A stretch of DNA of 64,000 bases from Devosia sp. 66-22 (lineage in GTDB: Bacteria > Pseudomonadota > Alphaproteobacteria > Rhizobiales > Devosiaceae), in assembly GCA_001899065.1 (NCBI GenBank), contig MKUZ01000006.1, forward strand, positions 173,054 to 237,053. Direction: 5' to 3'. Under the pieces are notes generated by a model. It made no database searches and was not told where the DNA came from. It was given only the letters and a program-made list of their open reading frames with translations. This document shows, in pieces, positions 15,721 to 31,579 of the stretch. Position 1 is the first letter of the stretch; every line of letters begins with the position of its first letter. Both the position numbers and the translations under genes were made by a program.

Positions 15721-15755
15721 TTGTCTGATGCCTCCCACGCCCGGACTCAGCCGGG

Positions 15756-15823: not shown

Positions 15824-17749
15824 TCACAAATCCACCGCGCAGCGGAAACCTATCAGACCGGATCGGTTCAATCCGGCGCCGCATTGCAGCAGCTTCACCG
15901 AGCGCGAGGGCGGCATCGGCCCGCTCTCGACATACCAGTCGGAGGGCGCCGCCAGCGGCGCACAGCCGCCCTTGAGGATGTGAAAGCGCGAACGCCCGTC
16001 GACATGTTCGCTCTCGGTGAGGTTCCACACCAGCGGGTCCGACCGTTCGAGCAGCCCGCGCTCCGCCGCGATCTGCCATTCGTCCTCGGTCGGCAGCCGA
16101 AGGCCGGCCCACGCCGCATAGGCCCGCGCGTCGGCCAGCTCGACATAAGTCACCGGCCCCGTCACCGCGAGCGCAAAGCGCTCCGTGCGGGCCGGGCTGT
16201 AGCCGGTCTCGCGCAGGAAGCGATGGAAGTCTTCCGCCGTGACCTCATGCACCCCGATGGCGAAGCGCCGCGCCGGCACATGGCGCGTCATCGTCGCCAT
16301 CGCATGCAGGCGCGGCGGCAGCGGCTTCCATTCGTCGACGAACGGCGCCTCGCCATAGAGGCCCGTCTCGCGCAGGCGGTGCGTCACCTCGAGATCGCCG
16401 CCGGGCCAATCCACCGCGACCATGCCGGCGGGGACGGCGGAATGACGCACGATGGGTGCGGGAATGCGGATCGCGGGGCGGGCGGCAAAGGTGGAGGCCA
16501 GGGCCCCCTCATCCGCCCTATCGGGCACCTTCTCCCCCAGGGGGAGACGGGCAGGCACCGCAATGCCTGGGTGTCGGCCGGATGAGGGGGCCTTTGCTAC
16601 AGCAGCTATTGCGCCTGCGCGCAGCACACCCGAAGCCGGACCGCCGCTCACCAGGTCGACCAGCCCCTCGCCTTCGATCCAGGGACCGTCATAGTCACCA
16701 CCGCGGTTGACCAATGTCCACAACGGCACACCGTCATGCACCCATTTGCTCGCGACGAGCTGCGGCGCGGCGGTCTGGGCCAGCGGCGTCCAGTCTTCGC
16801 TCGTGAACCATGGCGCACGCGAGCGATAGACCGCCGACATCGCCCGGAGCGTCGCCTTGTCGCGCGGCGACCAGCCGACCCAGACGCCGAACACCACCTC
16901 CCACACCAGCACGCCCGTGCCGTTGAGCCAGGCCGAGTGCAGCTCGTCGAGATGCTCATGGTTCCAGCGACGGATGTGGTGCAGCTCGTGCCGACGCTCG
17001 AGCCATTTGGTGCGCAACACACCGGGCGTCGCACTGTCAGCGAACCACTGGGCCCAGCTCATGGTCTGCGCCGCGACCCTGGGCAGCGGTACCTTGCTCT
17101 CCCCCTCGAGCGTCAGCGCCGGGTCGATCGCGTCGAGCGCAGCGCGCAGCGCGCCGCTTGCTTCTTTGGAGGAGTCGAGGAACACGCCGTCGACACCGAG
17201 CTTGCTGACGAGCCCGATCACCGTATCGATCGCCTCGGCGCCGCTGCCCGTCTCCCATGGATAGTAGCTCAGATAGACGCGCACGCCGCGCGCCTGGAAC
17301 TGCGCCACGACCGCGGGCAGCTCCGCGACATCCTCGAAATAGGCGAAGTGGTTGCGCGCGTCGATGCCGAGGACTGGATAGGCGTTCCACAGAGTGATGC
17401 CGTCGAAGAGGCCAAAGTCGCGCTCCGCCGCGTCGAGATAGCGGTCGACGGTGAACACACCCCGCTCGTGGTCGTAGAGCAGCTCGTCCCACAGCCAGGC
17501 GACATTCATCACCCGCGCCGAGGGGTTCGTGCCGCGATAGCGCGCATCGTCATAGCCGACCTTGGCACGCGCCTCGCTGCGCCAGCGCGTCAGCGCCGCG
17601 CGCCAGGCCGGCCAGTCGGCGGGATCGTCGGGCACGGCGAAGATCTTGGCTTCGTCGAGCACGCTCAAATCGGCGTCCGGCGCGAGCGGCACAATTGTCG
17701 GCCGGTCGATGGGCCGCGGGACGTAGGGATTGAACCCGAGAGAGGGCAT
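15824..17749 (-). CDS. TIM-barrel glycosidase-like domain fused to a formylglycine-generating-enzyme-fold domain
   Basis: A 641-residue protein without an evident signal peptide. Residues about 70-380 look like a glycoside-hydrolase-type barrel, with acidic residues at strand ends such as GVFLDSS and LTLEGE. Residues about 490-641 match the FGE-sulfatase/SUMF1 fold, with RLPTEDEW near the middle and a closing GFRCAVDL. No FGE active-site cysteine pair is obvious, so the domain may bind a ligand rather than oxidise cysteine. Residues about 386-416 are encoded by a palindromic repeat (16502-16592) and read as a foreign linker. The ATG overlaps the upstream stop by one base (TGATG). Catalytic function is unknown. 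Confidence 0.68.
   Translation of the reverse strand: MPSLGFNPYVPRPIDRPTIVPLAPDADLSVLDEAKIFAVPDDPADWPAWRAALTRWRSEARAKVGYDDARYRGTNPSARVMNVAWLWDELLYDHERGVFTVDRYLDAAERDFGLFDGITLWNAYPVLGIDARNHFAYFEDVAELPAVVAQFQARGVRVYLSYYPWETGSGAEAIDTVIGLVSKLGVDGVFLDSSKEASGALRAALDAIDPALTLEGESKVPLPRVAAQTMSWAQWFADSATPGVLRTKWLERRHELHHIRRWNHEHLDELHSAWLNGTGVLVWEVVFGVWVGWSPRDKATLRAMSAVYRSRAPWFTSEDWTPLAQTAAPQLVASKWVHDGVPLWTLVNRGGDYDGPWIEGEGLVDLVSGGPASGVLRAGAIAAVAKAPSSGRHPGIAVPARLPLGEKVPDRADEGALASTFAARPAIRIPAPIVRHSAVPAGMVAVDWPGGDLEVTHRLRETGLYGEAPFVDEWKPLPPRLHAMATMTRHVPARRFAIGVHEVTAEDFHRFLRETGYSPARTERFALAVTGPVTYVELADARAYAAWAGLRLPTEDEWQIAAERGLLERSDPLVWNLTESEHVDGRSRFHILKGGCAPLAAPSDWYVESGPMPPSRSVKLLQCGAGLNRSGLIGFRCAVDL
16502..16592. 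repeat. Palindromic repetitive element inserted in frame inside a coding sequence
   Basis: The ends are a perfect 14-base inverted repeat: GGCCCCCTCATCCG (16502-16515) and its complement (16579-16592). Inside are two more stems: TCTCCCCC/GGGGGAGA (16531-16547) and CAGGCA/TGCCTG (16552-16569). The core GGGCACCTTCTCCC (16523-16536) recurs on the other strand at 25576-25589. The element stays open in the host frame and encodes about 30 residues rich in Pro, Gly, Arg and Ala. Confidence 0.85.
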
Positions 17750-18525
17750 CAGAGACCGAGTATCCTGCGCGCCCGCACGATGATGGGGGCATCCACCATA
17801 CGGCCATCCACGGTGAAGGCGCCCGCCCCGCCCCTGGCCGCTTCAACCACCCGCTCGGCCCAGGCAATTTCCTGCGCGCTCGGCGCGAACGCCGCGTTGA
17901 GCAGCGGCACCACCGTCGGGTGCACGCAGGTTGCGCCGTCGAAGCCATGTTCGCGGGCTTCGCGGCCGGCGGCCTCGATCGCCGGCAGATCGGCATAGTC
18001 GGCCACCGAGCGCAGCAGACCGAAGCTCAATTTGCCTTCGGCCTTGGCCGCATAGTGCACCAGCAGCTTGGGCGTGCGCAGCACCTCGGGCGTCGGCGTC
18101 GCGCCCAGCTCGGTCGCGAGGTCCTCGCTGCCCACCAGCAGGCCCATCACGCCGGGATGCCGCGCGTAGTCCCGCGCATCGAGCACCGCACCGGGGCTCT
18201 CGAGCATGGCGATAGCCGGCAGCGCGAAGCTACCGAGCTCGCTGATCTCCGCCTTGGCCAGCACCAGCCCCGTGGCTCCGGCGCGTGCCGCCGCTGCGGC
18301 ATCGGCGCGTCGCCGCTCACCACTGTTGATGCGCACGAACACCTTGGCGCCGTTGCGCGACACGGCCGCGGCGGCGTCCGCCAAGGCATCTCGGGCCCGG
18401 TCCTTGTCGGCCTCGGGCACCGCATCCTCGAGGTCGAGGATGATCGCGTCCGCGCCGCGCTCGTGCGCCCTGGCGAGGAAGCGCTCCGCATGTGCGGGCA
18501 CATAGAGCAGCGAGCGCAGTCTCAC
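17749..18525 (-). CDS. HpcH/HpaI aldolase, citrate lyase beta subunit (CitE)-like
   Basis: A 258-residue TIM-barrel lyase. The N-terminus RSLLYVPAHAERFLARA and the metal-site segment ILDLEDAVPEADK are hallmarks of CitE and malyl-/citramalyl-CoA lyases. The Glu in IAMLESPGAV corresponds to the second acidic metal ligand, and VFVRIN supplies the conserved Arg. Stand-alone CitE-like proteins cleave beta-hydroxyacyl-CoA thioesters into acetyl-CoA plus a keto acid in the cytoplasm. The start is GTG within a GTGA overlap with the CoA-transferase stop, and the stop overlaps the next gene by one base. Adjacency to a class III CoA-transferase suggests that enzyme makes the CoA thioester it cleaves. 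Confidence 0.85.
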   Translation of the reverse strand: MRLRSLLYVPAHAERFLARAHERGADAIILDLEDAVPEADKDRARDALADAAAAVSRNGAKVFVRINSGERRRADAAAAARAGATGLVLAKAEISELGSFALPAIAMLESPGAVLDARDYARHPGVMGLLVGSEDLATELGATPTPEVLRTPKLLVHYAAKAEGKLSFGLLRSVADYADLPAIEAAGREAREHGFDGATCVHPTVVPLLNAAFAPSAQEIAWAERVVEAARGGAGAFTVDGRMVDAPIIVRARRILGL

Positions 18526-19691
18526 AGTCCGAGCTCCCTCAGGATTTCTGCATTGTGTTCACCCAGTGCCGGCGCCGGTCGCTGCCACACGCCCGGCGTG
18601 CTGCCCATGCGCGGCACGATGTTGTGCATCGGCAGCGCACCATAGTCGGCATCGTCGGCTTCGACGGTGACGCCGCGTTCGGTGAAATGCGGGTCGTCGG
18701 CTGCGTCGGCCGGCGAGAAGATCGGCCCGACGGTGGCGCCCGCCTCGCGCATGATCGCGAGCGCTTCGTCATGGTCGTGCTGGGCGAACCAGGCGCCCAC
18801 GGCCTCGTCGACCAGTTCGCGATGCTTCACCCGCTGCTCATTGGTGGCAAAGCGCGGATCGGCAAGCATGTCGCTCCGCCCGATCAGCTCGAAGATGCGC
18901 CTGGCGACCTGCGGCGTCGAGCCGGAGACGGCAAGGTACTTGCCATCGCGGGCGCGATACACGTTGCGCGGGCTCGACGTGTTGGAGGCGCTGCCCGAGC
19001 GCATCTTGGTCTTGCCCGTCACGCGATAGAGCGCCGCTTCCGGGCCGAGCACCGAGACGATGGGCTCGAGCAGGCTGAGGTCAATCACCTGCCCCCTGCT
19101 GAGCCCCTTTTCGCGCGCCAGCAGCGCCATGCTCACGGCATTGGCGCCATAGACGCCGGCGATCATGTCGGCCAGCGCCAGCGGCGGCAGCACCGGCTCG
19201 CGATCGGGGAAGCCGTTGCGATGCGCAAAGCCGCTCATCCCCTCGACGATCGAACCGAAGCCCGGCAGGTGCGCATAGGGTCCGGTCTGGCCGAAGCCCG
19301 AGATGCGCACGATGATCAGATCGGGATTGTCGGCGAGCAGCGTCTCAGGCGCGAGGCCCATCTGCTCGAGCGTTCCCGGTCGGAAATTCTCGATGAACAC
19401 GTCGGCCGTCCGGAGCAGCGCCTTCAGCGCCACCATGCCGGCGGCGTCGCGCAGGTTCAGCGCCAGCGACCGCTTGTTGCGGCCATAGACCTTCCAGAAC
19501 AGCGCATGCCCCTCGTCCTTCCATTGCCTGAGCGGATCGCCCTCGGGCGGCTCGACCTTGATGACATCGGCGCCGAAATCGCCGAGCTGCAGGCTGAGCA
19601 TATTACCGGCCACGAGCCGGCTGAGATCCACCACGCGAATACCGCGCAGCGGACCCTCAGACGTTGGATCGAAGTGGACAGCCTCAGGCAA
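18522..19691 (-). CDS. CaiB/BaiF (class III) CoA-transferase
   Basis: A 389-residue family III CoA-transferase. It opens with PLRGIRVVDLSRLVAG and continues with GADVIKVEPPEGDP, KRSLALNL and ENFRPGTLEQMG, the standard N-terminal blocks. The segment GQVIDLSLLEP (Asp near residue 204) aligns by eye with the active-site Asp region of the superfamily. It would move CoA between carboxylic acids in the cytoplasm. The start is TTG at 19691, giving an eight-base overlap with the upstream gene; no ATG is available at a sensible position. Its product is a plausible substrate for the downstream CitE-like lyase. Confidence 0.85.
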   Translation of the reverse strand: MPEAVHFDPTSEGPLRGIRVVDLSRLVAGNMLSLQLGDFGADVIKVEPPEGDPLRQWKDEGHALFWKVYGRNKRSLALNLRDAAGMVALKALLRTADVFIENFRPGTLEQMGLAPETLLADNPDLIIVRISGFGQTGPYAHLPGFGSIVEGMSGFAHRNGFPDREPVLPPLALADMIAGVYGANAVSMALLAREKGLSRGQVIDLSLLEPIVSVLGPEAALYRVTGKTKMRSGSASNTSSPRNVYRARDGKYLAVSGSTPQVARRIFELIGRSDMLADPRFATNEQRVKHRELVDEAVGAWFAQHDHDEALAIMREAGATVGPIFSPADAADDPHFTERGVTVEADDADYGALPMHNIVPRMGSTPGVWQRPAPALGEHNAEILRELGL

Positions 19692-21783
19692 AGTCCTCGA
19701 TCTCCAGGCGGCCCACGCTCATCCGCCCCGCGCTCGCAATGCGCAGGCCGGCCATGCCGTAGCGATAGGCACCGTCGCTCGCCGACAGCAGCTCCTTGCC
19801 ATCGACCGACAAAGTCAGCCGGTCGCCGATCGCCTTGAGCTCGACCTGATGATCGCGGCCCAACTCGAGCTTGAACGGCGCCGCGGCCAGCACGGTCGTG
19901 CCGTGATCCTGCTTGACGATCACCACCTGCCCGTCATGGAAGCCGCCCGCATAGAAGCGGCTCGTGCCCTGAACGCGTGCGCTCACGAGGTGCGAGCCGC
20001 CCGCCAGCGGCGTGAGTTCGGCGGCGACGCGCTGGTCGCGGAGGTAGGCATTGCCGGTCCACAGATCCGCGTCGCTCGCGGTGTGCACATGCAGCCGGCC
20101 GCCTTCCATCGTGAAGTAGCCGCGGTTCCAGGTGAAGCGCGTGACGCCGCCCCATTCGAGCTGTTCGAGCTTTGGGTCGATCGTCACCTTGCCCGGCCCG
20201 CTCACCTCGAAGTCGGCGAGGAACAGGCGGCCGAGGAATTTGAGCCGGCCGAAATACTCGATCGACACGCCGATTTCGTCGACCGCTTCGGCCGAACCAT
20301 CGGGGATCGCGAACTCGTATTGCTGCCAGTCGTCCTTGGCGGGAATCTGCCAGGCGCCGACCTCCTCGATCGTGCCGCTCATGGCGCGACGCACATAGGG
20401 CACGACGCGCAGATTGCCGTCGCCGTTCCAGGGGTCGAGCTTGAGTTTGAACTTGACGATCTGGCCGTTGTCGGCCACCGGCGTGAACATCGGGCGGTAG
20501 CGCTCGTCGTTGAATTCGCTCTGGCGATACCAGGGCTTGTAGAACACGCGTCCACCCTGGCCGCGCTCGAGCCGGTCGAGCTGGATCTCGAGCGCGCCGC
20601 GCGAGGCTTCGGTATGCACCTCATCGGTGTGCCGCAGCAGGATGCGGTTGAGCCCTTCGGCGCGGAAGCCATGCGTCGAGCCCGGCGCGTCGAAGTCGAA
20701 GCGGAGGCCGCGGCGCTCGAAATCCTCGACCCAGAGCGGATCGGGTGCCTCGCCATTGAGCCGCTGGCCCAACACGGTCAGCTCGCGCGCGAAGGTCGGG
20801 ATGTCGAGGATGTTGACCGTTCCCAGCACGCCCGAGGTCACGAGGAAATCGTTGATGGGCTTGCGATATTTGTCCCAGCCCGGCTGCAGGCCCTGGAAGG
20901 TGCCCACGATCGCCGCCGCGTTGCCGGCATTGCAGTCGGTGTCCCAGCCGGCCATCGTCGCGATCTCGGCGGTGCGCGGCAGGTCGCCCTTGCCGTAGAG
21001 GACGGCCATGATCAGCACGCCGGCATTGGGAATGATGTGGCAGACGCCCGGATAGCGGTCGTAACCGAAATCGGCGACCAGCATCTTCTGGCACGAACGC
21101 CAGTCGTCGGGGTGCGCCTTGTGATGAGCGATCACCGCCTTGGCGACGCGCGCATATTCGCTGTCGCCGGGAATGGTCGCCATCGCCGCGGCGACGATCT
21201 CGTCGATCGACGTGGCGACGAAGGCCTGCGCGATCGCCGCCGCCACCCAGCGCGCGCCATGCAGACCATTGCCGTCATGCGCGACGCTGGCGGCGCGCGC
21301 CGACATTTCGGCGGCACGCTTGGGATTGCCCGGGTTCAGCCAGCCCCAGCTATCGATGAAGATCTGACCGCCGATCTGTTCGGCGATGGCTGCGCCATTG
21401 GTCGCGATCGACCCGGACGCCGGCGCCGCAATACCGTTCCTCAGGTTGAGATAGGCGGTGTGCTCGGTCGAGCGGCCAAAGCCGCCCCACCAGTACATGC
21501 CGTGCTCCTCCGCCGCGTAGTTGAGCCAGGTCCGGCCCTCCTGCTCGGCGGTGAAGTCGAGGCCATAGTCGCGCAGCACGCGGATGAAATAGACCGGGCC
21601 GTTGGTGTCGTCGTCCGCCGCGAAATTCTTGAAGTCGTGGAGGTATTGCGTCACTTCGCCATAGGTCTTCTCGATCCGCTCGAGCGACCAGATTGTCGGC
21701 TCGACCGGAGCGCCCAGCCGCACGCCGATCGCCTTGGCGATGAAGCCTGCATAGATGCGCTCGTAGATATCCCGCGTGTTCAC
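19684..21783 (-). CDS. ADP-ribosylglycohydrolase-family protein with C-terminal beta-sandwich domain
   Basis: A 699-residue protein. Residues 1-370 form an ADP-ribosylglycohydrolase (ARH) helical fold, with metal-binding clusters AADDDTN near residue 57 and GWDTDCNAGN near 280. Residues about 390-699 look like one or two jelly-roll domains of the LamG or 3-keto-disaccharide hydrolase type. No signal peptide is seen. ARH proteins cleave N- or O-glycosidic bonds to ribose or ADP-ribose using two Mg2+ ions. In a carbohydrate import operon the substrate is more likely a small glycoside. Start is GTG with AAGGAA upstream; the stop overlaps the CoA-transferase start. Confidence 0.8.
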   Translation of the reverse strand: MNTRDIYERIYAGFIAKAIGVRLGAPVEPTIWSLERIEKTYGEVTQYLHDFKNFAADDDTNGPVYFIRVLRDYGLDFTAEQEGRTWLNYAAEEHGMYWWGGFGRSTEHTAYLNLRNGIAAPASGSIATNGAAIAEQIGGQIFIDSWGWLNPGNPKRAAEMSARAASVAHDGNGLHGARWVAAAIAQAFVATSIDEIVAAAMATIPGDSEYARVAKAVIAHHKAHPDDWRSCQKMLVADFGYDRYPGVCHIIPNAGVLIMAVLYGKGDLPRTAEIATMAGWDTDCNAGNAAAIVGTFQGLQPGWDKYRKPINDFLVTSGVLGTVNILDIPTFARELTVLGQRLNGEAPDPLWVEDFERRGLRFDFDAPGSTHGFRAEGLNRILLRHTDEVHTEASRGALEIQLDRLERGQGGRVFYKPWYRQSEFNDERYRPMFTPVADNGQIVKFKLKLDPWNGDGNLRVVPYVRRAMSGTIEEVGAWQIPAKDDWQQYEFAIPDGSAEAVDEIGVSIEYFGRLKFLGRLFLADFEVSGPGKVTIDPKLEQLEWGGVTRFTWNRGYFTMEGGRLHVHTASDADLWTGNAYLRDQRVAAELTPLAGGSHLVSARVQGTSRFYAGGFHDGQVVIVKQDHGTTVLAAAPFKLELGRDHQVELKAIGDRLTLSVDGKELLSASDGAYRYGMAGLRIASAGRMSVGRLEIEDFA

Positions 21784-21804
21784 TTCGGTTCCTTCAATTG
21801 TGAG

Positions 21805-23010
21805 TCAGGCGACCTTGTCGGCCGCGATTGGAGAGAGCAGTTGCGTGCGGTCGCCCGCCACCTGCTGGGCCCGCCGCGCCGCCTGGACGAAGATGTCGTT
21901 GGCGGCATCGGCGAAGCGATCGGCTTCCGCCATCAGGTCGACGCGGTTGGCCCGGTCGAGCAGAGCGAGGTCGGCCGGATCGATCACCGCCGCGCCGTGC
22001 AGCACGCCCAGGATCGCGCCCGCCATCACGCCGATCGAGTCGGTGTCGCGGCCCGAATTGATGCCGTCTTCGACCGATTTGCGGAACACGCCGGAATTGA
22101 CCACGGCAAAGCCGAGCGCCAGCGGCAGCTCCTCGATCGCATGCAGCCGGCTGGGCTGGTAGGCGTCGCTGGGCATGCCCGCCTTGTCGGGCGAGTGGTT
22201 CACATTGTCGCCCATGGGCGAGTAGGCGGCGATGATGTCGTGGAATACTGCCGTTACCTCGGCATGGTCGCTGCCCGCTGCCCTGAGCTTGCGCGCCGCC
22301 GACACGATGTCGACGATGGCCCGCCTTGTGCCGTCCTTGGCCACCGTGATCGTCGCTTCCACCACATCGTCGAGCGTCGTGCCCGGCACGAAGGCCGCGG
22401 CCACCGCCGCCGCCATCACGCCCGCCGCCTCGAGTCCGAAGCTCTGCTGGTGGCCGGCGGCGAAGGCGATCGCCTCATCATAGGCGGCGCGTGGATCGCA
22501 GGCATTCACCGCGCCGATGGGCGCGATGTACATCGCCGCGCCGCAGTTCACCATGTTGCCGATGCCGCCCTGGCGCGGATCGACGCCGGAGAGCTGGTGG
22601 CGCTGGTAGATCCACTTCTCGGGATAGAACAGTCTTTCGACCAGCAGCGCCTCGCGCTGCAGCTCGGGGATCCAGCGCGGCGTCCAGCCGATCTCGCGGA
22701 CCATGCCATCCGCCATGTCCCACGCGTCGAGCGGCCGCCGCTCATTGGCGTAGATGTTCATCAACGCCAGCGTCATCAGCGTGTCGTCGGTGACGATGCC
22801 GTTGCCGCGCACGCGACCGTTTCGGGCCCCATCGGGCAAATCCATCTTGTGCCACCGCGTATCGAGCGAGGTGACACGGCCGTAGCGCGCCCGGATCTCC
22901 CCGGCCGAGAGTTTCTCGACCGGGGCACCGAGGGCGTCGCCAAGGGCGACGCCGTAGAGCAGCGCGCGGATCCGTCCCTTGAGGGACAGACCCTCGTCTG
23001 TCGTGGTCAT
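21805..23010 (-). CDS. ADP-ribosylglycohydrolase-family protein
   Basis: A 401-residue ARH-fold enzyme. Recognisable blocks are LYGVALGDALGAPVE near the N-terminus, the metal motif VTDDTLMT near residue 74, and SGRDTDSIG near 320, the paired Asp clusters that hold two Mg2+ ions in this family. It is much shorter than its neighbour and has the more canonical first motif, so the two are not recent duplicates. The ATG overlaps the stop of the binding-protein gene (ATGA), tying it to sugar import. The glycosidic substrate is unknown. Confidence 0.85.
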   Translation of the reverse strand: MTTTDEGLSLKGRIRALLYGVALGDALGAPVEKLSAGEIRARYGRVTSLDTRWHKMDLPDGARNGRVRGNGIVTDDTLMTLALMNIYANERRPLDAWDMADGMVREIGWTPRWIPELQREALLVERLFYPEKWIYQRHQLSGVDPRQGGIGNMVNCGAAMYIAPIGAVNACDPRAAYDEAIAFAAGHQQSFGLEAAGVMAAAVAAAFVPGTTLDDVVEATITVAKDGTRRAIVDIVSAARKLRAAGSDHAEVTAVFHDIIAAYSPMGDNVNHSPDKAGMPSDAYQPSRLHAIEELPLALGFAVVNSGVFRKSVEDGINSGRDTDSIGVMAGAILGVLHGAAVIDPADLALLDRANRVDLMAEADRFADAANDIFVQAARRAQQVAGDRTQLLSPIAADKVA

Positions 23011-24443
23011 TTAAGCACAGTCCTTGCGTAGTCGGTCAGGCGCTGGCCGCCGGCAGCGTTCCACTCGGCGACATAGGTGTCCCACTGGTCCATGCCGGCT
23101 TCGCCGGTGATGAACTTGGCCACCCAGGAACGATAGACGTTCTCGGCAGCGTCGACATCGGGCGCGTATTCGGCCGGCCACACGAAGCTGTTGTCCGGCT
23201 TGAACCACTTGCTGACGCTCGCCAGGAAGTCGAGCGAGGCCTGCGAGCGCCATTCGGTCGGCGGCACCCAGGTCGGCGCGTAGGAGAAGCGCGCATACCA
23301 GGTCGACATGTCCGGGTTGACGGTGATCGTGCCGTCGGCGGCCTTGGTGTAGTGCGTGCCTTCAAAGCCCATGCGGTCGACCACCTGGCCTTCGGGGCTG
23401 GCGAGAAAATCCATCACCTTCATGGCGGCAGCCTGCGTCTCGGGCGACGCCACCGACGAGATGGCCCAGCCGCGGCTCTCCTTGCTCACATCCACGGCCT
23501 GCAGGCCCTGGCCGCCCGGGCCCGAGGGCACCGGCAGCAGGGTCAGCGTGATGTCCTCGCCCGGATGGGCCGCGGCCATCTTGCCGCCATAGATGCCAAC
23601 CGTCTCGGCGGAGGAGCCGAAGATCACGCCAGCCTTGCCGGTGTAGAACTTGTCTTCCTTCACGTCGAACTTGTTGGTGACGTACTCCTTGTCGAACAGG
23701 CCCTTGGCGGCAAGATCGGCGTAATAGGCGATCTTGGCCTTCTCCTGCTCGGTCACGCGCGCGGCGACCCACTGGCCCGACGCGTCCTTCATCCAGGTGC
23801 CGGTGACGCCGAAGGCCTGGTTGAAGATGTCGTCGAGTTCGTTGGTGTTCACATAGGCGGTGAGGCCCAGCGTGTTACCCGGGGTGCCGTCGCCGTCGAG
23901 ATCGCCATCGTGGATCGCCTGGAACAGGGCGGTGTAGTCGTCGACGGTCTCGGGCTTCTTGCCGCCCAGCTTTTCGAGCCAGTCGGTGCGGATCACCGGC
24001 TGCGGCGCACGCGGCGGGAAGTCGTAGACCAGGTAGGGGTAGTTCTTCATGCGCTCGACGTTGTGGCCGTAGAGCTCGTTCTTGAGGAACTTGGTGCTGG
24101 CGATGAGCGGGTTGAGGTCGGCGAGGATGCCTTGCTCCACCATCTTCTGGTCGCCGCCCTGGAAGTAGATCAGGTCGGGGATATCGCCGCCCAGCAGCAG
24201 CGCGCTCAGCTTGTCGGCATAGGACGAGGCCGCGATCGGCACGATCTGCAGGTCGATATCGCTGCCGTCCATGGCTTTGACGCCGGCCTCGATGTTCTTG
24301 ATGTAGGTCTCCGATGCCGGATCGTCCGGCACGAGGTCGCCGGCCACGATGCGCACCACGGTCGCCTGGGCCATCGCGCCGCCGACCATCACGGCCGTCA
24401 TCGCGATAGCGGTCCCCGCCATCAGCAGGTGTCGTCTAAGCAT
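23007..24443 (-). CDS. ABC transporter substrate-binding protein (family 1, LipO/YtcQ-like)
   Basis: A 478-residue periplasmic binding protein. The start is ATG 24443, preceded by AGGAGG. A longer in-frame extension exists but lacks a ribosome site and would bury the signal peptide. The signal sequence ends AMAQA near residue 26, with no lipobox Cys. A DGDLDGDGTPGN segment in the middle resembles a calcium-binding loop and is common in this subfamily. The adjacent permeases are of the LplB/LplC type, which import oligosaccharides or related compounds. Downstream enzymes suggest a glycosylated acid as ligand. Confidence 0.87.
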   Translation of the reverse strand: MLRRHLLMAGTAIAMTAVMVGGAMAQATVVRIVAGDLVPDDPASETYIKNIEAGVKAMDGSDIDLQIVPIAASSYADKLSALLLGGDIPDLIYFQGGDQKMVEQGILADLNPLIASTKFLKNELYGHNVERMKNYPYLVYDFPPRAPQPVIRTDWLEKLGGKKPETVDDYTALFQAIHDGDLDGDGTPGNTLGLTAYVNTNELDDIFNQAFGVTGTWMKDASGQWVAARVTEQEKAKIAYYADLAAKGLFDKEYVTNKFDVKEDKFYTGKAGVIFGSSAETVGIYGGKMAAAHPGEDITLTLLPVPSGPGGQGLQAVDVSKESRGWAISSVASPETQAAAMKVMDFLASPEGQVVDRMGFEGTHYTKAADGTITVNPDMSTWYARFSYAPTWVPPTEWRSQASLDFLASVSKWFKPDNSFVWPAEYAPDVDAAENVYRSWVAKFITGEAGMDQWDTYVAEWNAAGGQRLTDYARTVLK

Positions 24444-24492
24444 GGAATGTCCTCCTGTTATGCTTGTTGGTTTGGTTGGTTGTGATTGAACT

Positions 24493-24521
24493 GGGGTGTC
24501 GGGTAGTCCGACGCCGACCCC
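24493..24521. terminator. Possible stem-loop between permease and binding-protein genes
   Basis: GGGGT (24493-24497) and GTCGG (24498-24502) can pair with ACCCC (24517-24521) and CCGAC (24508-24512), leaving a four-base bulge. It lies in the 108-base gap before the binding-protein gene and could stabilise or partly separate the two mRNAs. Confidence 0.33.
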
Positions 24522-24551
24522 ATCCACCGGCGGCGGGCATGCCAAGTGCGC

Positions 24552-25511
24552 TCATCCCTTCACCGCTCCCGTCATGGTGCCCTTGGTGAAGTATTTGAGG
24601 ATCAGCGGGTAGATCACGAGGATGGGCGCGATGGTCAGCAGGATCATGCCGGCCTTGAAGGCACGCAGGTCGATCTGGCTGGCATTGGTGTATTTGCCCA
24701 TGTCCTCGAGGCCCACGATCGAGAGCTTGTCGCCCTCGACCACGAACTGCCGCAGCACGAGTTGCAGCGGCCATTTGTTCTGGTCGTTGAGATAGAGCAG
24801 CGGCCGGAAGAACTCGTTCCAGTGAAACACGATATAGAACAGCGCTATGGTCGCGATGGCGGGCTTGGCCAGCGGCAGCACCACCATGTAGAAGGTCTGG
24901 AACGGATTGGCGCCGTCGATGCGTGCCGCCTCGATCAGGTCTTCGGGGATCTCCTCGAAGAAGCGCACGAGGATGATCAGGTACCAGGCGTTCACCGCCT
25001 TATACATGATCACCGACCAGTAGGTGTCGAGCAGGCCGAACTGCTTGTTGAAGAAGTAGTCGGGCAGCATGCCCGGCTCGAACACGATCGTGACCAGCAC
25101 CAGCACATAGACCGCGCGGCGACCCGGCAGGCCGGGACGCGACAGGCCCCACGCCATCAGCGTGGTCAGCGCAATGTTGATGACGACGCCCACCGCCGTG
25201 ATCAGGATCGAGTTGAGCATGCCCTGCTGGACGCGCGGATGGTTGACGAGCACGGTCCACACATCGAGCGAGAAGCCTTCGGGGATGATGGTGAGCCCGC
25301 TCATCCCCGGCACGCGCGCATTGTCCGACAACGACACTGCAAGGAGGTTGAGGATGGGCTGCACGGTGACGACGACCATGGCGAGCAGCGTCGTCACGAT
25401 GATCGCATACTCGATCCGCTCGAGCGGCGTCCGACCGATCGCCGCGCGGGTATGAACATACTCACCCTTGGCCGGCGCCATCGGCGCGATGGGTTCTTCG
25501 ATGCTGGTCAT
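24552..25511 (-). CDS. ABC transporter permease, LplC/YtcP-like
   Basis: A 319-residue inner-membrane protein with six predicted helices and a MalG-type layout. The EAA coupling loop is near residues 191-215 (EAARIDGANPFQTF). The C-terminal KGTMTGAVKG tail is typical of the YtcP/LplC group. It pairs with the LplB-like permease encoded upstream (25633-26577). No ATPase gene is present in the operon. Confidence 0.9.
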   Translation of the reverse strand: MTSIEEPIAPMAPAKGEYVHTRAAIGRTPLERIEYAIIVTTLLAMVVVTVQPILNLLAVSLSDNARVPGMSGLTIIPEGFSLDVWTVLVNHPRVQQGMLNSILITAVGVVINIALTTLMAWGLSRPGLPGRRAVYVLVLVTIVFEPGMLPDYFFNKQFGLLDTYWSVIMYKAVNAWYLIILVRFFEEIPEDLIEAARIDGANPFQTFYMVVLPLAKPAIATIALFYIVFHWNEFFRPLLYLNDQNKWPLQLVLRQFVVEGDKLSIVGLEDMGKYTNASQIDLRAFKAGMILLTIAPILVIYPLILKYFTKGTMTGAVKG

Positions 25512-25535
25512 GGCCGGCCTCGCGATGGTGCGTGT

Positions 25536-25612
25536 GGCCTCACCCTCATCAGGCTTCGCCGCCTCCTCCCATCGAGGGAGAAGGTGCCCAGCGGGCGGAT
25601 AGGGGGGCGGCC
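25536..25612. repeat. Palindromic repetitive element, second copy, between the two permease genes
   Basis: On the minus strand it carries the same core as the copy at 16502-16592: ATCCGCCC, a short spacer, then GGGCACCTTCTCCC (plus-strand 25576-25589). The ends are GGCC (25536-25539 and 25609-25612). An internal stem CTCCC/GGGAG lies at 25566-25580. The copy is intergenic and less symmetric than the first. Confidence 0.75.
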
Positions 25613-25632
25613 GCTTGCGCCGAGCATACCCA

Positions 25633-26577
25633 TCACCACACCCCCCGGCCTGTGAGCCGCTTGCTCACCAGATGCGCGACGATGATCAGGATGAAGCCGA
25701 TGACGCCCTTGAACAGGCCGGCTGCGGTGCCCAGCGCATACTCGCCAGTCTGCAGGCCGATGCGGTAGACATAGGTGTCGATGATGTCGATCGTCGAGCG
25801 ATTGACGTCGTTCTGCATGTTGAACACCTGGTCGAGCCCGGCGCTGAGGAACATGCCCATATTGAGGATGAACAGCGTGGCGATCGTCGGCGCGATACCG
25901 GGGATTGTGATGTGCCAGATCTTCTGCCAGCGATTGGCGCCGTCGATCTCGGCCGCTTCGTACAGCGACTGGTCGATGGCAATGATGGCGGCGAGGTACA
26001 GCAGGCTGTCCCAGCCGGCCGAGCGCCAGATTTCCGACAGCACCAGCACCCAGCGGATGGCGCCGGTATTGGTCATGTAGTTGACCGGTTGCAGGCCCAC
26101 GGCGCGCGCGATGTCGTTGATCGCGCCCGAGGGCGAGAGCAGCGCGATGAAGATGCCCGAAATCACCACCCAGCTGAGGAAGTGCGGCAGGTAGACCGCC
26201 GACTGGATGGTCTTGCGCAGCGGCCCCGAGCGGACCTCGTTGAGCATCAGCGCCACGATGATCGGCACCGGGAAGATGAAGACCAGCTTCATCGTCGAGA
26301 TGATGATGGTGTTCCAGACGACCTGGTAGAACACCGGCGAGGAGAACAGGAGCTGGAAATTCTTGAGCCCCACCCAGATGTTGGGCGGGATGATGCGCAC
26401 CTGCTCGAACGCCATCTTGGCGTTCCAGATCGGCACGTAGTGCCAGATCACGAAGAAGATCACGCCCGGCAGCAGCATCGCCCAATAGGGCCACCATTGC
26501 CGGAAGCTGTGGGCGAAGTCGCCGCGCGCCCTGCGGCCGGCTGGCCCATTGCTGTGGGGAGCGAGCTCGGCCGTCAT
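25633..26577 (-). CDS. ABC transporter permease, LplB-like
   Basis: A 314-residue permease with six helices. A cytoplasmic N-terminus precedes helix 1 (WPYWAMLLPGVIFFVIW), and the EAA loop EAAEIDGANRWQKIW lies near 204-218. It is the first gene of the transport operon. A perfect palindromic operator (26702-26717) sits about 125 bases upstream of its ATG. Together with the LplC-like protein it would form the channel for the LipO-like binding protein. Confidence 0.9.
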   Translation of the reverse strand: MTAELAPHSNGPAGRRARGDFAHSFRQWWPYWAMLLPGVIFFVIWHYVPIWNAKMAFEQVRIIPPNIWVGLKNFQLLFSSPVFYQVVWNTIIISTMKLVFIFPVPIIVALMLNEVRSGPLRKTIQSAVYLPHFLSWVVISGIFIALLSPSGAINDIARAVGLQPVNYMTNTGAIRWVLVLSEIWRSAGWDSLLYLAAIIAIDQSLYEAAEIDGANRWQKIWHITIPGIAPTIATLFILNMGMFLSAGLDQVFNMQNDVNRSTIDIIDTYVYRIGLQTGEYALGTAAGLFKGVIGFILIIVAHLVSKRLTGRGVW

Positions 26578-26701
26578 GGCGCCGGATCCTTGAGGGCGGC
26601 GCGTCGTGCCGGAATCGACGTGCCATTGGCCGGATTCGTGCTGACTTTCGCCGAGATTCGCGGGGATATCACTTGGCTTCTCCGCTCAAATCCGTTGCAA
26701 T

Positions 26702-26717
26702 CCGGGAACGTTCCCGG
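26702..26717. promoter_or_regulatory. LacI-type operator upstream of the LplB-like permease
   Basis: CCGGGAACGTTCCCGG is a perfect 16-base palindrome with a central CG, as LacI-family operators usually have. The same sequence with one change occurs upstream of the lacI-type gene (27847-27862). Confidence 0.75.
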
Positions 26718-26757
26718 GACGCTGCCGGCCGTGCCGAAGAGTGTCATGCCCGTCTCC

Positions 26758-27807
26758 TCATACCCGTTCGGACTGTCGGGAGCCGACAGCGGCGTCAGAT
26801 AGATCGGCCAGCGAGCCGCGCTCGATCAACCGGCATGGGAGGTAGATGCGGCTGTGATCGGCGCGGCCCGCTATCTCGTCGACGAGACTCTCGACCGCGC
26901 GGCGGCCGAGGGCGCGCGCGGGCTTCTCGATGGTGGTGAGGCCGGGCCAGGAGAAGGCGCCGCCGGGAATGCCGTCAAAGCCCAGCACCGACACCTGCTC
27001 GGGGCAGTTCAGCCCCGCATCGCGCGCCGCCATCATGGCGCCGAGCGCCATCAGGTCGTTGGCGGCAAACACGCAGATATGCGGGCTTTTGTCCCTTTCG
27101 AGGATGCGCGTCATGGCGGCATGGCCACCCTCGACCGTGTATTCGCCGTCCTCGATGGGCAGGCTCGCCGGGTCGACATCGCGCTCGAGGCAATGGTCGT
27201 TGACGGCGCGCAGGAAGCGCGCCCGGGCAATGCGCCAGCGCGGCCCCAGCATCAGCCAGGGGCGCCGGTGGCCCATGGACAGCAGGTAATCGAGCCCCAG
27301 CCGCACCGCCTGGGTGATGTCCGAGCCGACGCTCGAGGTGTCCGGGAAGCGCTCGGCGCTCGAGCCGATCAGCACGAAGGGCAGGCCGAAGCGGTGCAGA
27401 TCGTCGAAGCTGTCGGCGACCGGATTGATGATCACGCCCTCGACCCGCGCCTGGCGCAGCGCCTGCAGGTGCCGCGCCTCGCGGTCGTGGTCCCAGTCGG
27501 AGGAAAACACCAGCAGCGAGGCGCCGGCATCGGCGGCGCGATCCTGCGCGCCACGGGCCACTTCGGCCCAGAACGGGTTGGCGATATCAGGGATCACGAG
27601 GCCCAGCATGCCCGAGCGGCCCGAGCGCATGCCCACCGCCAGGTGGTTGCGCTCATAGCCGAGGGCGCGGGCCGCCGCGAGCACCTTGTCGCGCGTCGCC
27701 GGGCTGATTTCGGGAGCATTGGAGAGAGCTCGCGCCGCGGTGGATTTGCTCACCCCGGCGCGCTGCGCCACGTCGACGATTGTCTGCCTGCGGCTCCCCC
27801 GCACCAT
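26758..27807 (-). CDS. LacI-family transcriptional regulator
   Basis: A 349-residue repressor. The N-terminal helix-turn-helix (TIVDVAQRAGVSKSTAARAL, residues 9-28) and hinge helix are followed by a periplasmic-binding-protein-like sensor domain (LGLVIPDIANPFWAEVARG). The C-terminal SVLGFDGIPG and LTTIEKPARALGRRAVE blocks are typical. It lies just upstream of the transport and ADP-ribosylglycohydrolase operon on the same strand. Matching palindromes precede both its own gene and the permease gene, so it probably represses itself and the operon until a sugar-like ligand binds. Confidence 0.92.
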   Translation of the reverse strand: MVRGSRRQTIVDVAQRAGVSKSTAARALSNAPEISPATRDKVLAAARALGYERNHLAVGMRSGRSGMLGLVIPDIANPFWAEVARGAQDRAADAGASLLVFSSDWDHDREARHLQALRQARVEGVIINPVADSFDDLHRFGLPFVLIGSSAERFPDTSSVGSDITQAVRLGLDYLLSMGHRRPWLMLGPRWRIARARFLRAVNDHCLERDVDPASLPIEDGEYTVEGGHAAMTRILERDKSPHICVFAANDLMALGAMMAARDAGLNCPEQVSVLGFDGIPGGAFSWPGLTTIEKPARALGRRAVESLVDEIAGRADHSRIYLPCRLIERGSLADLSDAAVGSRQSERV

Positions 27808-27846
27808 CTCCTCCCGGGACGGACTCTGGCGGTCCGCTCTCCATTT

Positions 27847-27862
27847 CCGGGAACGTTACCGG
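27847..27862. promoter_or_regulatory. LacI-type operator upstream of the regulator gene
   Basis: CCGGGAACGTTACCGG differs from the 26702-26717 palindrome at one base. It is centred about 48 bases upstream of the regulator's ATG, a position fit for autoregulation. Confidence 0.7.
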
Positions 27863-31000: not shown

Positions 31001-31579
31001 CCGCTCGAGCAGACACCACCATCGACCGCCAACAATGTGCTGTCGGGGCTGTCGGTCGGCTTCGCCATCGCTGCCGTCGACCAGGTGCGTGTCGGCTACG
31101 ACAAGGCCACGGCTCGAACGCTCAAGCAGAAGATGCCGGGCCCAACCGGCGAGTCCAACGTGCTCGAGACGCATCCGCGCGGCATCGTGCTCTGCCTCGG
31201 CCCCGACGAGGAGTCGGCGCGACGACAGGCGCAGCTCGCGCTCGCCCATGGCAATGCCGTGCTCGTTGTCGCCTATGGCGGCCCGCGCATCGCCGAGGAG
31301 CTGGGCAAGGACGGTGCGGCGATCGGCGGCGTCGAACGGCGGCTGTCGCCGGCGGTGATCGAGGCCGGGCTCAACGTCGATGCGATCATGCATTTCGGTA
31401 CGCCCGAAGCACTGCGGCCATGGCGGCAGGCGCTGGCGCGCCGCGACGGCCCGATCGTGCCGCTGATCGCCAGCGAGGCCGATGCCGGCCGGCTGATCCT
31501 CGAGCGCCACATCTGCATCGACACCACCGCCTCGGGCGGCAATGCCGAACTGCTGGCGGGGATTTCGGCGGGGACCTAG
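28031..31579 (+). CDS. putA: Bifunctional proline dehydrogenase / L-glutamate-gamma-semialdehyde dehydrogenase PutA
   Basis: A 1182-residue enzyme that oxidises proline to glutamate. The N-terminal proline dehydrogenase barrel (about 80-470) includes FQRLHGMGERLH for FAD and proline binding. The aldehyde dehydrogenase domain (about 530-985) has the Glu in AETGGLNAM and the catalytic Cys in SAGQRCSALRV. A tail past about residue 1000 looks like the extra C-terminal domain of long PutA proteins. No ribbon-helix-helix domain precedes the barrel, so it should not act as its own DNA-binding repressor. Start ATG has GGAGCG just upstream. The stop overlaps a convergent ATPase gene by four bases. Confidence 0.95.
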   Translation: MSLEIIRQEMREALTADAAAIDRLVAAAGLDDGARQAITADAVRLVEKVRAGLSTGMLESFLSEYSLSTTEGIALMCLAEALLRVPDTTTMDDLIEDKIASARWLEHFDAANPLLVNVSTLALTLTGEVLRDTGAGVTGMVRNFVQRLGEPVIRGAVLQAMKILGSQFVLGRTIEEAANTARKAEAQGFAYSYDMLGEAARTEADAKRYRTAYAEAIAVIAARCTADKVRDNPGVSVKLSALHPRYEFAKRGRVMNELVERALALAVMARGANMGFNIDAEEADRLDLSLDIIEAILSDPRLAGWDGFGVVVQAYGPRAGYVIDWVAELAERLDRRVMIRLVKGAYWDAEIKRAQVLGLDGFPVFTAKAATDVSYVANARKLLEKRNRIYPQFATHNAHTVATVLYLAKQLGATTTEFEFQRLHGMGERLHQILADEHGTKTRIYAPVGRHADLLAYLVRRLLENGANGSFVNMIADRDVPAAQVARDPFESVREPSRITGPDDLFAPSRRNSRGFDTTDPLAMAELDETRAGFADRLWSAAAANAVEGDAVEYFRIESPATGELVGEAIGAGPQTIDAVLAAATAAAPDWAARPVAERAAILRRAAELYEANAAELYVLCTREAGKVLSDAVSEIREATDFLRYYAVEAERLREGVPLGVVTCISPWNFPLAIFTGQVAAALVAGNAVLAKPAETTPLIAARAVELLHEAGVPRDALQLVPGRGGTVGAALTSDPRVGGVVFTGSLPTAKAIDRAMADRLDAAAPLIAETGGLNAMIVDSTALPEQAVRDILASAFQSAGQRCSALRVLYLQEETADKVLDMLLGAMDELAVGDPAVLATDVGPVIDTRARDKIDAHIAAHAARGAVLKQLATPIGGTFVGPAVLKVAGIGELTEEIFGPVLHVATFKANQLDKVIADINAAGYGLTFGLHTRIDARVEHVSHRIKAGNIYVNRNQIGAVVGSQPFGGEGLSGTGPKAGGPHYLPRLSRPLEQTPPSTANNVLSGLSVGFAIAAVDQVRVGYDKATARTLKQKMPGPTGESNVLETHPRGIVLCLGPDEESARRQAQLALAHGNAVLVVAYGGPRIAEELGKDGAAIGGVERRLSPAVIEAGLNVDAIMHFGTPEALRPWRQALARRDGPIVPLIASEADAGRLILERHICIDTTASGGNAELLAGISAGT

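Follow-up and report, generated by a model that had tools for sequence, protein, structure and literature searches.

A predicted LacI-controlled operon with two ADP-ribosylglycohydrolase-family genes in Devosia sp. 66-22 and its relatives, and its possible role in the catabolism of a ribosylated hydroxy-acid

Introduction

ADP-ribosylglycohydrolases (ARHs) have been studied mostly as erasers of ADP-ribosylation. This raises the question of what two genes of this family might do in one operon with an importer, a CoA-transferase and a CitE-like lyase. In the 64-kb stretch of Devosia sp. 66-22 DNA analysed here (the window), the open reading frame list places all nine genes named in an earlier sequence-only reading on the minus strand between 15824 and 27862, transcribed in the order lacI, lplB, lplC, binding protein, ARH1, ARH2, class III CoA-transferase, CitE-like lyase and TIM/FGE fusion (Table 1). 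Judging from sequence comparisons, we consider it somewhat probable that these genes form a self-contained operon, controlled by LacI, for the catabolism of a ribosylated hydroxy-acid, a substrate that we infer along with all activities. The operon was not described in the open-licence PMC literature searched, and papers mentioning both ADP-ribosylglycohydrolase and citrate lyase drew no operon link between the two in the available text of those examined.

Table 1. Features of the operon and its surroundings in the window.
Feature	Position	Strand	Basis
Operator 1, GGTAACGTTCCC	27849..27860	-	upstream of lacI; same site in relatives and own-genome search
lacI-family repressor, 349 aa	26758..27807	-	LacI and Peripla_BP_3 over Pfam cut-off
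Operator 2, perfect palindrome GGGAACGTTCCC	26704..26715	.	lacI-lplB gap; exact site in relatives
LplB-type ABC permease, 314 aa	25633..26577	-	BPD_transp_1
LplC-type ABC permease, 319 aa	24552..25511	-	BPD_transp_1
AlgQ/LipO-like solute-binding protein, likely start 24443	23007..24545	-	profile match to AlgQ1/AlgQ2
ARH1, ADP-ribosylglycohydrolase-family, 401 aa	21805..23010	-	PF03747, 146 bits
ARH2, 699 aa: ARH domain ~1-345, middle beta domain, C-terminal CBM66-like domain ~550-699	19684..21783	-	PF03747, 154.5 bits
Class III (CaiB-type) CoA-transferase, 389 aa	18522..19691	-	PF02515 (CoA_transf_3), 384 bits
CitE-like C-C lyase, 258 aa	17749..18525	-	PF03328 (HpcH_HpaI), 82.5 bits
TIM-barrel-like and FGE/SUMF1-fold fusion, 641 aa, accessory	15824..17749	-	FGE-sulfatase (Pfam), C-terminal part
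GFO/IDH/MocA and aldo-keto reductase fusion, 679 aa, possible accessory	13699..15738	-	domain matches

A conserved gene set with a predicted operator

The family assignments of the sequence-only reading agreed with Pfam matches for the LacI regulator, the permeases, both ARHs, the CoA-transferase, the CitE-like lyase and the FGE part, and with a profile comparison for the AlgQ-like binding protein. The genes are tightly coupled from the binding protein to TIM/FGE. By ORF coordinates with predicted starts, the binding-protein gene and ARH1 share 4 bp and ARH2 starts 21 bp after the end of ARH1, followed by overlaps of 8 bp between ARH2 and the CoA-transferase, 4 bp between the CoA-transferase and CitE, and 1 bp between CitE and TIM/FGE. 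A promoter scan was uninformative, returning 0 sites versus a mean of 1.3 in shuffled sequences.

Of the 80 loci compared, we assigned 69 to the alphaproteobacterial type, among them L123 with Planctomycetota in its title, and 11 to the spirochaete type. A gene was counted as testable only where the contig extends far enough, and only loci longer than 9000 bases entered the gene clustering. Across several alphaproteobacterial families gene order and content were kept: among testable loci of this type the LplB-type permease was present in 57/57, the LplC-type permease in 58/58, the binding protein in 60/60, ARH1 followed by ARH2 in 64/64, the CoA-transferase after ARH2 in 61/62 and the CitE-like lyase in 56/62. 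Conservation of the gene set in related genomes, suggested as a check by the sequence-only reading, was thereby found with its order kept in Alphaproteobacteria and also in spirochaetes, with CitD-/CitF-like genes replacing the CoA-transferase.

Two predicted operators, which had escaped the earlier description, mark the operon. In 54 of 55 relatives the LacI-type site GGKAACGTTMCC precedes lacI (55 of 56 including the window), and the exact sequence recurred in the lacI-lplB gap of 56 of 57 relatives as well as in six of the ten spirochaete loci having the operon start on the contig. This predicted site is a conserved palindrome with a central CG, as for a local regulon of the LacI family. 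A reversed-pattern control gave 0 matches in 1.49 Mb, and a 14-base search of the own genome found the two operon sites only. Searching with the 12-base core added one more place, on contig C13. It lies within a predicted 580-aa ORF, the only operon-type gene in its surroundings is a homologue of the ABC ATPase at a distance of 7 kb, and it was therefore taken as a chance site. Among NCBIfam models the LacI protein came closest to CytR, a LacI subfamily and RbsR, with scores far below cut-off in every case; we infer that the protein binds GGKAACGTTMCC. Since the gene set is conserved and the operator present, a chance cluster could be ruled out, and on sequence comparison the gene set is a conserved regulon.

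Two ARH-family proteins with intact metal-site motifs

Both ARHs passed the PF03747 (ADP_ribosyl_GH) cut-off of 26.2 bits by far, and both carry the motifs of the two-metal site (Glu; Asp-Asp; Asp-x-Asp) in alignments of their relatives. For ARH1 (63 rows) TDDT was found in 61 and DTDS in 62 rows with gaps in the remainder, and E32, D75, D76, D322 and D324 showed no substitution except gaps. For ARH2 (71 rows) D57-D59 was found in 70 rows and WDTDCN in 71, likewise with no substitution except gaps at D57-D59 and D281-D283, while T60 was V or I in nine rows and E28 was N in one. From work on ARH3 and DraG we take these motif residues to be metal ligands. The ARH2 model (mean pLDDT 90.4) has a helical domain of ARH fold followed by all-beta regions, which bears out the beta-sandwich tail proposed for this protein, and the last of these resembles the CBM66 of levanase. 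In a Foldseek search the model matched ARH3 (6hh3_A, TM 0.74 by target), MJ1187 (1t5j, 0.74) and CBM66. The window ARHs thus share metal-site motifs, and ARH2 by its model also the fold, with DraG, ARH3 and MJ1187, but differ from them in the extra beta domains of ARH2 and in the location of both genes within an importer operon.

DraG removes ADP-ribose from nitrogenase reductase, and the ARHs of the operon might similarly be regulators that strip ADP-ribose from the CoA-transferase, the lyase or the transporter. ARH1 indeed matches DraG structures weakly and the DraG equivalog model TIGR02662 at 51 bits, but 337 bits would be needed, and ARH2 gave no match to this model at 0.01. The presence of two different ARHs within one importer operon, the association with ribokinase-like genes described below, and a general inspection of the recurring neighbours, in which no ADP-ribosyltransferase came to notice, also speak against such a function, which we regard as very improbable. 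That the ARHs act on ADP-ribosylated proteins alone, the second refuting condition of the sequence-only reading, is likewise made unlikely by the import genes and the ribokinase association.

Importer, cargo and identity of the sugar

The binding protein alone matched no Pfam or NCBIfam model, and a profile built from 11 sequences (the protein and ten relatives) matched AlgQ1 at 4e-24 and AlgQ2 at 2e-22. With two LplB/LplC-type permeases and this binding protein, the operon resembles importers of the AlgQ1/Q2 and LplABC types, but differs from them in that the window's copy is without an ABC ATPase gene, which was found in 53 of 63 testable relatives. An acidic cargo would be consistent with the AlgQ-like binding protein.

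The sugar part may be ribose, as ribokinase-like genes in four members of the family point to. Such a gene lies inside the operon in L130, where it accompanies the CoA-transferase and CitE, in Agrobacterium (L183) and in a spirochaete (L162), and in R. leguminosarum (L188) the gene is divergent from lacI and has its own operator. D-ribokinase TIGR02152 was the best-scoring model for all four, at 226-283 bits and so below the cut-off of 299.65. Additionally, paralogues of ARH2 adjoin nucleoside hydrolase, phosphorylase-family and PfkB genes, and all characterised ARHs that we know of act on ribosyl bonds. A small operon with an ARH gene and a kinase gene is also known from E. coli (yegTUV, repressed by GgaR, with yegV a putative sugar kinase; PMC10819704) and from Salmonella (STM4065-4067, in which STM4066 is an aminoimidazole riboside kinase; PMC3161100). 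The available text of these sources describes no CoA-transferase or lyase there, and yegTUV differs further in having one ARH and a putative symporter versus the two ARHs and the ABC importer of the window.

The same pathway could also serve another sugar such as a hexose or uronic acid, with the ARHs as more general glycosidases and the beta domains of ARH2, the CBM66-like one included, holding the sugar. AlgQ-like binding proteins bind uronic-acid oligosaccharides, ARH2 has its levanase-like C-terminal domain, and a ribokinase-like gene was found in only one of the 80 named loci (retrieved stretch, 1e-8), with 79 lacking one. We nevertheless consider a non-ribose sugar unlikely, given the ribokinase-like genes in four separate members, one with its own operator, the ribosyl bonds on which the characterised ARHs known to us act and the nucleoside enzymes beside ARH2 paralogues.

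Activation and cleavage of the acid

The CoA-transferase is assigned to class III by PF02515 over cut-off together with Asp175, presumably the catalytic Asp, which was present in 60 of 60 rows and aligned with an Asp of SUGCT 9br6. Similarly, PF03328 over cut-off and an Arg, Glu and Asp at the site of Rv2498c, to which the closest solved structures belong, indicate a CitE-like beta-hydroxyacyl-CoA lyase. Arg65 (present in 60 of 61 rows, with a gap in the other) and the invariant Glu109 and Asp135 (61 of 61 rows each) align with Arg64, Glu112 and Asp138 of Rv2498c, active-site residues as given in the available text of PMC6689899. The protein stayed below the cut-offs for citrate lyase beta (TIGR01588, 100 of 443 bits needed) and RipC (NF038242, 112 of 375 bits needed). 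The operon thus shares with itaconate/citramalate degradation (RipC, Rv2498c) a CitE-like lyase of the kind that splits an acyl-CoA into acetyl-CoA and an oxo-acid, and retains the Rv2498c site residues, but has ARHs and a sugar-type importer ahead and no hydratase among its recurring genes.

Some ARH loci are without the CoA-transferase and CitE, which indicates that the link between the acid step and the ARHs is not strict. Neither gene was found beside the ARHs in L111 or in the plasmid copies of Agrobacterium, Nitratireductor, R. leguminosarum and Phyllobacterium (seven of 25 plasmid records examined), and CitE was missing in five further Ensifer/Rhizobiales loci. Six genomes without the operon's CitE, that of L111 among them, encode CitE elsewhere. 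Conversely, CoA-transferases 70-80% identical to the operon copies recur with CitE but without ARHs, as do more distant pairs (12 of 24 CoA-transferase matches retrieved, gene lists for six), and several pairs without ARHs adjoin other importers.

The spirochaetes carry a diverged operon (ARH2 43-46% identical) in which CitD-, CitE- and CitF-like genes follow in this order, with ARH2 directly before CitD and the CitD-/CitF-like parts in the CoA-transferase position. This order is that of citrate lyase CitDEF, but tested proteins scored below the equivalog cut-offs, narrowly for three CitF (454, 498 and 482 of 501 bits) and by more for two CitD (34.6 of 63.5 bits each), and the genes accompany ARH2 and an ABC importer of the sugar type. 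CitG and CitX, which make and attach the cofactor and are needed for classic citrate lyase, were found in four and three of nine spirochaete genomes, mostly MAGs. A tree joined alphaproteobacterial ARH1 with the small spirochaete ARH (99/97), but only on long branches flagged as unsafe, and BLAST paired the spirochaete ARH proteins with ARH2 among the targets listed, so that orthology of these two was set aside.

Two readings of this acid module compete with a single imported compound. The operon might serve two nutrients under one switch, with the ARHs acting on a riboside with a non-acid aglycone and CoA-transferase/CitE on a co-occurring free hydroxy-acid. This would accord with the independent occurrence of the pair beside other transporters, the ARH operons lacking it and a second ABC importer that follows the Nitratireductor copy. 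Among the recurring genes of the main operon, however, there is no second importer that would serve a free acid, and the recruitment of different activating machinery at the same place beside CitE in spirochaetes would be difficult to account for if the acid did not derive from the imported compound; two nutrients seem to us distinctly unlikely. The ARHs might alternatively have as their target the phosphoribosyl-dephospho-CoA group on the carrier protein of citrate lyase, a cofactor that contains a ribosyl-ribose bond, and ARH2 does stand directly before CitD in spirochaetes. We rejected this as extremely improbable because alphaproteobacterial operons keep both ARHs with a CoA-transferase in place of CitD/CitF, and because neither CitG nor CitX found a match in the own genome, which speaks strongly against this reading in Devosia. 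A hydroxy-acid would be consistent with either back end, CoA-transferase/CitE or CitDEF-like.

Accessory genes

The sequence-only reading had counted the TIM/FGE fusion among the operon genes. It lies outside the conserved core, with just four relatives carrying it downstream of CitE (L050, L120, L127 and L129, the last identical to L052), and was accordingly dismissed as a core enzyme and listed as a rare accessory. Its TIM-barrel part matched no Pfam model, and its structure model (pLDDT 46.7) was too poor for a structure search. The 679-aa GFO/AKR fusion gene adjoining the operon had gone unmentioned; both halves follow CitE (82% identical) in one close relative (L073, the same as L033), and the remaining loci compared gave no match of that kind close to CitE.

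Proposed pathway and significance

In the proposed pathway, LplBC and the AlgQ-like binding protein would bring in an acidic compound, possibly a di- or tricarboxylic acid of the citrate or citramalate type that bears ribose as an O-riboside, N-riboside or 1-O-ribosyl ester, and an inducer would bind LacI and release it from GGKAACGTTMCC. ARH1 and ARH2 would cleave the compound at their two-metal site into ribose, which could enter the pentose phosphate pathway via ribokinase, and the free acid, which the class III CoA-transferase would convert to its CoA ester. The CitE-like lyase would then split the ester into acetyl-CoA (or acetate) and a 2-oxo (or 3-oxo) acid; in spirochaetes a CitDEF-like, carrier-protein-based complex may perform the last two steps. 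Import, ARH cleavage, CoA activation and splitting of a glycosylated acid had been proposed by the sequence-only reading; gene conservation and the fit of an acidic cargo to the AlgQ-like binding protein favour this scheme, while the members without CoA-transferase and CitE count against its acid part. Malate or citrate itself is an unlikely substrate because aerobes use both via the citric acid cycle, without a CoA-transferase and CitE. We know of no natural ribosyl-hydroxy-acid of the proposed kind.

More tentatively, ARH-fold enzymes could be dedicated catabolic ribosidases in a two-phylum regulon for an undescribed ribosylated citrate- or citramalate-like acid sufficiently common in soil and sediment to serve as a carbon source, with an interchangeable back end (CoA-transferase and CitE, CitDEF, perhaps an AtuA-like protein). 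The operon points to a natural compound of which we know no description, and suggests that one lyase type is served by two unrelated routes of substrate activation. An operator-marked operon that combines two ARHs with an importer and a hydroxy-acid module, and in some members a ribokinase-like gene, offers a direct and testable way towards a metabolic role for ARHs, which would extend to bacterial ARH genes such as yegU.

Operon structure in Devosia sp. 66-22

All nine genes of the minus-strand operon lay where the sequence-only reading had placed them and belonged to the families it had named, as judged by domain and NCBIfam matches. From the binding-protein gene through the gene for the TIM-barrel/FGE-fold fusion, reading frames overlapped or lay within 21 bases of the next. 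The window corresponds to contig C6, 173054-237053, of genome G000. We consider this genome Devosia-like since in a scan of named genomes the closest relatives of its ARH2 were found in two MAGs of its own genus, one named Devosia nanyangense (87%) and the other assigned to Hyphomicrobiales (88%). ARH1 and ARH2 were the only matches to the ADP-ribosylglycohydrolase (ARH) family across the whole genome. The beta-sandwich tail attributed to ARH2 was borne out by a confident model (pLDDT 90.4), in which a domain similar to ARH3 and MJ1187 is followed by beta structure in the middle and, at the C-terminus, by a domain resembling the CBM66 of levanase. Genes flanking the operon are included in the table of features, where L-numbers denote loci fetched from other genomes, except L189, which belongs to the own genome.

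Features within and around the ARH operons
Feature	Location	Remarks
GFO/IDH/MocA oxidoreductase and aldo-keto reductase fusion, 679 aa	window 13699-15738	matching segments, in the same order, after CitE in L033/L073
PutA-like ORF (proline dehydrogenase / aldehyde dehydrogenase), 1182 aa, named by eye	window 28031-31579, plus strand	directly past the operon
Third operator core, exact	L189:9718-9729, contig C13	within a predicted 580-aa ORF (8934-10676, minus strand), apart from the operon's kin
AtuA-family gene (PF07287)	L162:14948-16333	upstream of lplB; spirochaete ARH operon without CitDEF
AtuA-family gene (PF07287)	L163:14789-16171	upstream of lplB; spirochaete ARH operon without CitDEF
ARH2 paralogue	L062:1607-12290	in divergent LacI-linked gene groups
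ARH2 paralogue	L065:6988-14486	in divergent LacI-linked gene groups
Operon copy on Agrobacterium plasmid, typed conjugative	L183:8498-14822	near acyl-homoserine-lactone synthase and LuxR-type genes
First ARH2 gene of Sphaerochaetaceae genome G142	L160:8050-12076	cut by contig end; CitD-, CitE- and CitF-like genes follow
Second ARH2 gene of G142	L164:8985-11087	beside a family 4 glycosidase

Distribution and conservation

Within the family of the own genome, ARH2 matches at 1e-10 occurred in 67 of 136 genomes, and by a count of printed rows 62 genomes had a match of at least 55% identity, some in pieces. An even sample of 397 further genomes from across the phylum gave a single match at 1e-60, a 35% paralogue; beyond its own lineages the operon is thus rare. 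In the spirochaete phylum 6/296 genomes had a match at 1e-60. Scanning the named genomes with aligned ARH2 sequences left 80 loci, 69 of alphaproteobacterial type and 11 from spirochaete MAGs; hosts included Devosia, Ensifer/Sinorhizobium, Aminobacter, Rhizobium, Pelagibacterium and Paracoccaceae-type MAGs.

Neighbors were counted in the 69 alphaproteobacterial-type loci, using for each gene only contigs that extended far enough. On the importer side ARH2 was always accompanied by ARH1 (64/64), the binding protein (60/60), lplC (58/58), lplB (57/57) and lacI (55/55). The proposed co-occurrence of the ARHs with the CoA-transferase and CitE held in this sample, with 61 and 56 of 62 testable loci, respectively. 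An ABC ATPase gene was present in 53/63 testable loci and absent from ten, as from the window copy; elsewhere the own genome had 29 ATPase matches at 1e-40, the best sharing 59% identity with the ATPase of a Pelagibacterium operon. Upon clustering the genes of the longer loci, operon genes recurred in 52-70 loci and the next cluster (CitF) in 7. The operon is therefore conserved as a unit. In L125, L131, L133, L150 and L151 operon genes matched in pieces, with frameshifts in ARH2, ARH1, lacI, CitE and others. Apart from one copy on a Rhizobium plasmid these come from Devosia, and L053-L056 and L043 overlap some of the same genomes; the frameshifts reflect either decay or sequencing error.

Operator and regulation

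A LacI-type palindrome, GGKAACGTTMCC, was found upstream of lacI in 54/55 relatives (exception L078); the gap between lacI and lplB contained it in 56/57, the L120 copy having one mismatch. Across all 80 loci (1.49 Mb) there were 119 exact sites, and the control, the same pattern read backwards, gave 0. Two exact sites were present in 55 of the alphaproteobacterial-type loci, one in 3 and none in 11, and no lacI was found on the contigs of these 11 either. A search of the own genome located the 12-base core at three places, two of them at the operon. Because the third lies inside a predicted ORF away from the operon's kin, this operon is probably the regulator's only target.

Among 16 spirochaete stretches (L147 and L164 overlap) the exact operator was present in L137, L140, L142, L145, L161 and L163, and with one mismatch in L136. 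No operator was found in L139, L144 and L162 despite the operon start being on the contig; the start was off the contig in L138, L141, L143 and L160, and in L147/L164 ARH2 was not accompanied by importer genes.

The spirochaete version of the operon

As far as contigs extended, L136-L145 encoded lacI, a small ARH, lplB (57-61% identical, but 32% in L136), lplC, a binding protein (unmatched in L136) and ARH2 (44-46% identical). Downstream followed a protein of 87-95 aa, then CitE, then a protein of 471-528 aa. Their NCBIfam matches were to the citrate lyase gamma/acyl carrier protein (35-46 bits, two tested), beta (212 and 258 bits, two tested) and alpha subunits (454-498 bits, three tested), all under curated cut-offs, the last narrowly. 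CitF was present in 7/11 spirochaete loci of the scan. L160 likewise had citrate-lyase-like genes after ARH2 (Pfam matches for CitF and ARH2; CitD and CitE recognized by eye), and in L161 ARH2 was followed by a single 404-aa ORF with CitD- and CitE-like parts and then CitF. These arrangements suggest that a carrier-protein transferase system replaces in spirochaetes the class III CoA-transferase of Alphaproteobacteria, with a lyase of one family in both. In a tree the ARH2 proteins of both phyla grouped together to the exclusion of the 35% paralogues, with support of 93/85, slightly below the strict mark. CitG was found in 4/9 and CitX in 3/9 of these spirochaete genomes, a distribution that fits either the presence or the absence of a functional carrier of the citrate-lyase type.

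Clues to the acid

The nearest solved relatives of the binding protein were AlgQ1 and AlgQ2, which take acidic oligosaccharides. Those of the CoA-transferase were CaiB/BaiF 4ed9 and SUGCT, and that of CitE was Rv2498c. CitE residues Glu109, Asp135 and Arg65 aligned with the site residues of Rv2498c and were kept in 61 aligned rows with one gap at Arg65. PMC6689899 gives these site residues as Glu112, Asp138 and Arg64, states that Rv2498c splits (S)-citramalyl-CoA and (R)-HMG-CoA, not citryl-CoA, and describes sequence as an unreliable guide to function in the CitE-like family.

The CoA-transferase and CitE also occurred apart from ARHs. Two of the six genomes with a CitE away from the ARH operon (see below) had it in a second locus, L153 or L154, together with a CoA-transferase sharing 73-80% identity with those of the operons, a 2-hydroxyacid dehydrogenase, an RraA-like protein, an IclR-like regulator and a different type of importer. 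Family assignments were tested in L153, where the regulator and the permease and ATPase of the importer were recognized by eye. The exact operator did not occur in L153-L158. Order-wide, the CoA-transferase matched at 1e-130 in 21/397 genomes. CitE adjoined it in 11 of 12 fetched loci (exception L180), one of the 12 being an ARH operon (L171, same as L130), and an importer like that of L153 lay directly upstream in 4/6 gene lists by eye. This recurrence of the pair without ARHs and with its own importers supports a free hydroxy-acid as its putative substrate.

Clues to the sugar

Ribokinase-like genes were encoded in the L130 operon between ATPase and CoA-transferase, beside two ARHs in spirochaete L162, and divergent from lacI on Rhizobium leguminosarum pRL1 (L188; start 1609, own exact operator at 1695); on the Agrobacterium plasmid a gene annotated as ribokinase stands where the CoA-transferase would. 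The best model for all four was that of ribokinase, TIGR02152 (226-283 bits, below the cut-off of 299.65). Phyllobacterium L185 retained a 76-aa fragment of a ribokinase-like gene in the same place as in R. leguminosarum. Since only 1/80 named loci had such a gene, most carriers would have to rely on a kinase encoded elsewhere; the own genome holds ribokinase-like genes (best 266 bits).

The 35% ARH2 paralogues had LacI and ABC genes as neighbors, and in L062 also a nucleoside hydrolase, a nucleoside-phosphorylase-family gene and a PfkB gene. L062 and L065 might thus represent another type of riboside locus built around an ARH within this bacterial family. A 28% paralogue (L067) lay beside a PnrA-type importer. 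According to PMC3161100, the Salmonella gene for the putative ARH STM4067 lies in one operon with that for the aminoimidazole riboside kinase STM4066, and E. coli yegU is listed as a gene of unknown function in PMC10819704.

A putative pathway for acidic ribosides

We propose that an acidic riboside would be imported and cleaved by ARH1 and ARH2, the ribose passing to ribokinase. The freed acid would be converted to its CoA (or carrier-protein) ester, which CitE would split into acetyl-CoA or acetate and an oxo-acid. The two ARHs could possibly act on different anomers or different linkages, or on a compound that carries two ribosyl groups. Neither CoA-transferase nor CitE was found alongside the ARH operons of L111 and of the Agrobacterium, Nitratireductor, R. 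leguminosarum and Phyllobacterium plasmids, and no CitE in the spirochaete operons with an AtuA-family gene. Such operons fit either an acid handled elsewhere or a substrate family with varied aglycones. A CitE sharing 55-57% identity with that of an Ensifer operon was encoded elsewhere in 6/6 genomes checked, namely five from Ensifer/Rhizobiales with no citE in the ARH operon and that of L111, whose operon lacks both genes.

We found no description of this operon in the open PMC literature. Its parts belong to familiar families, arranged as in LacI/ABC operons for carbohydrates. What appears to be new is the putative use of ARHs as catabolic enzymes linked to an acid-splitting module.
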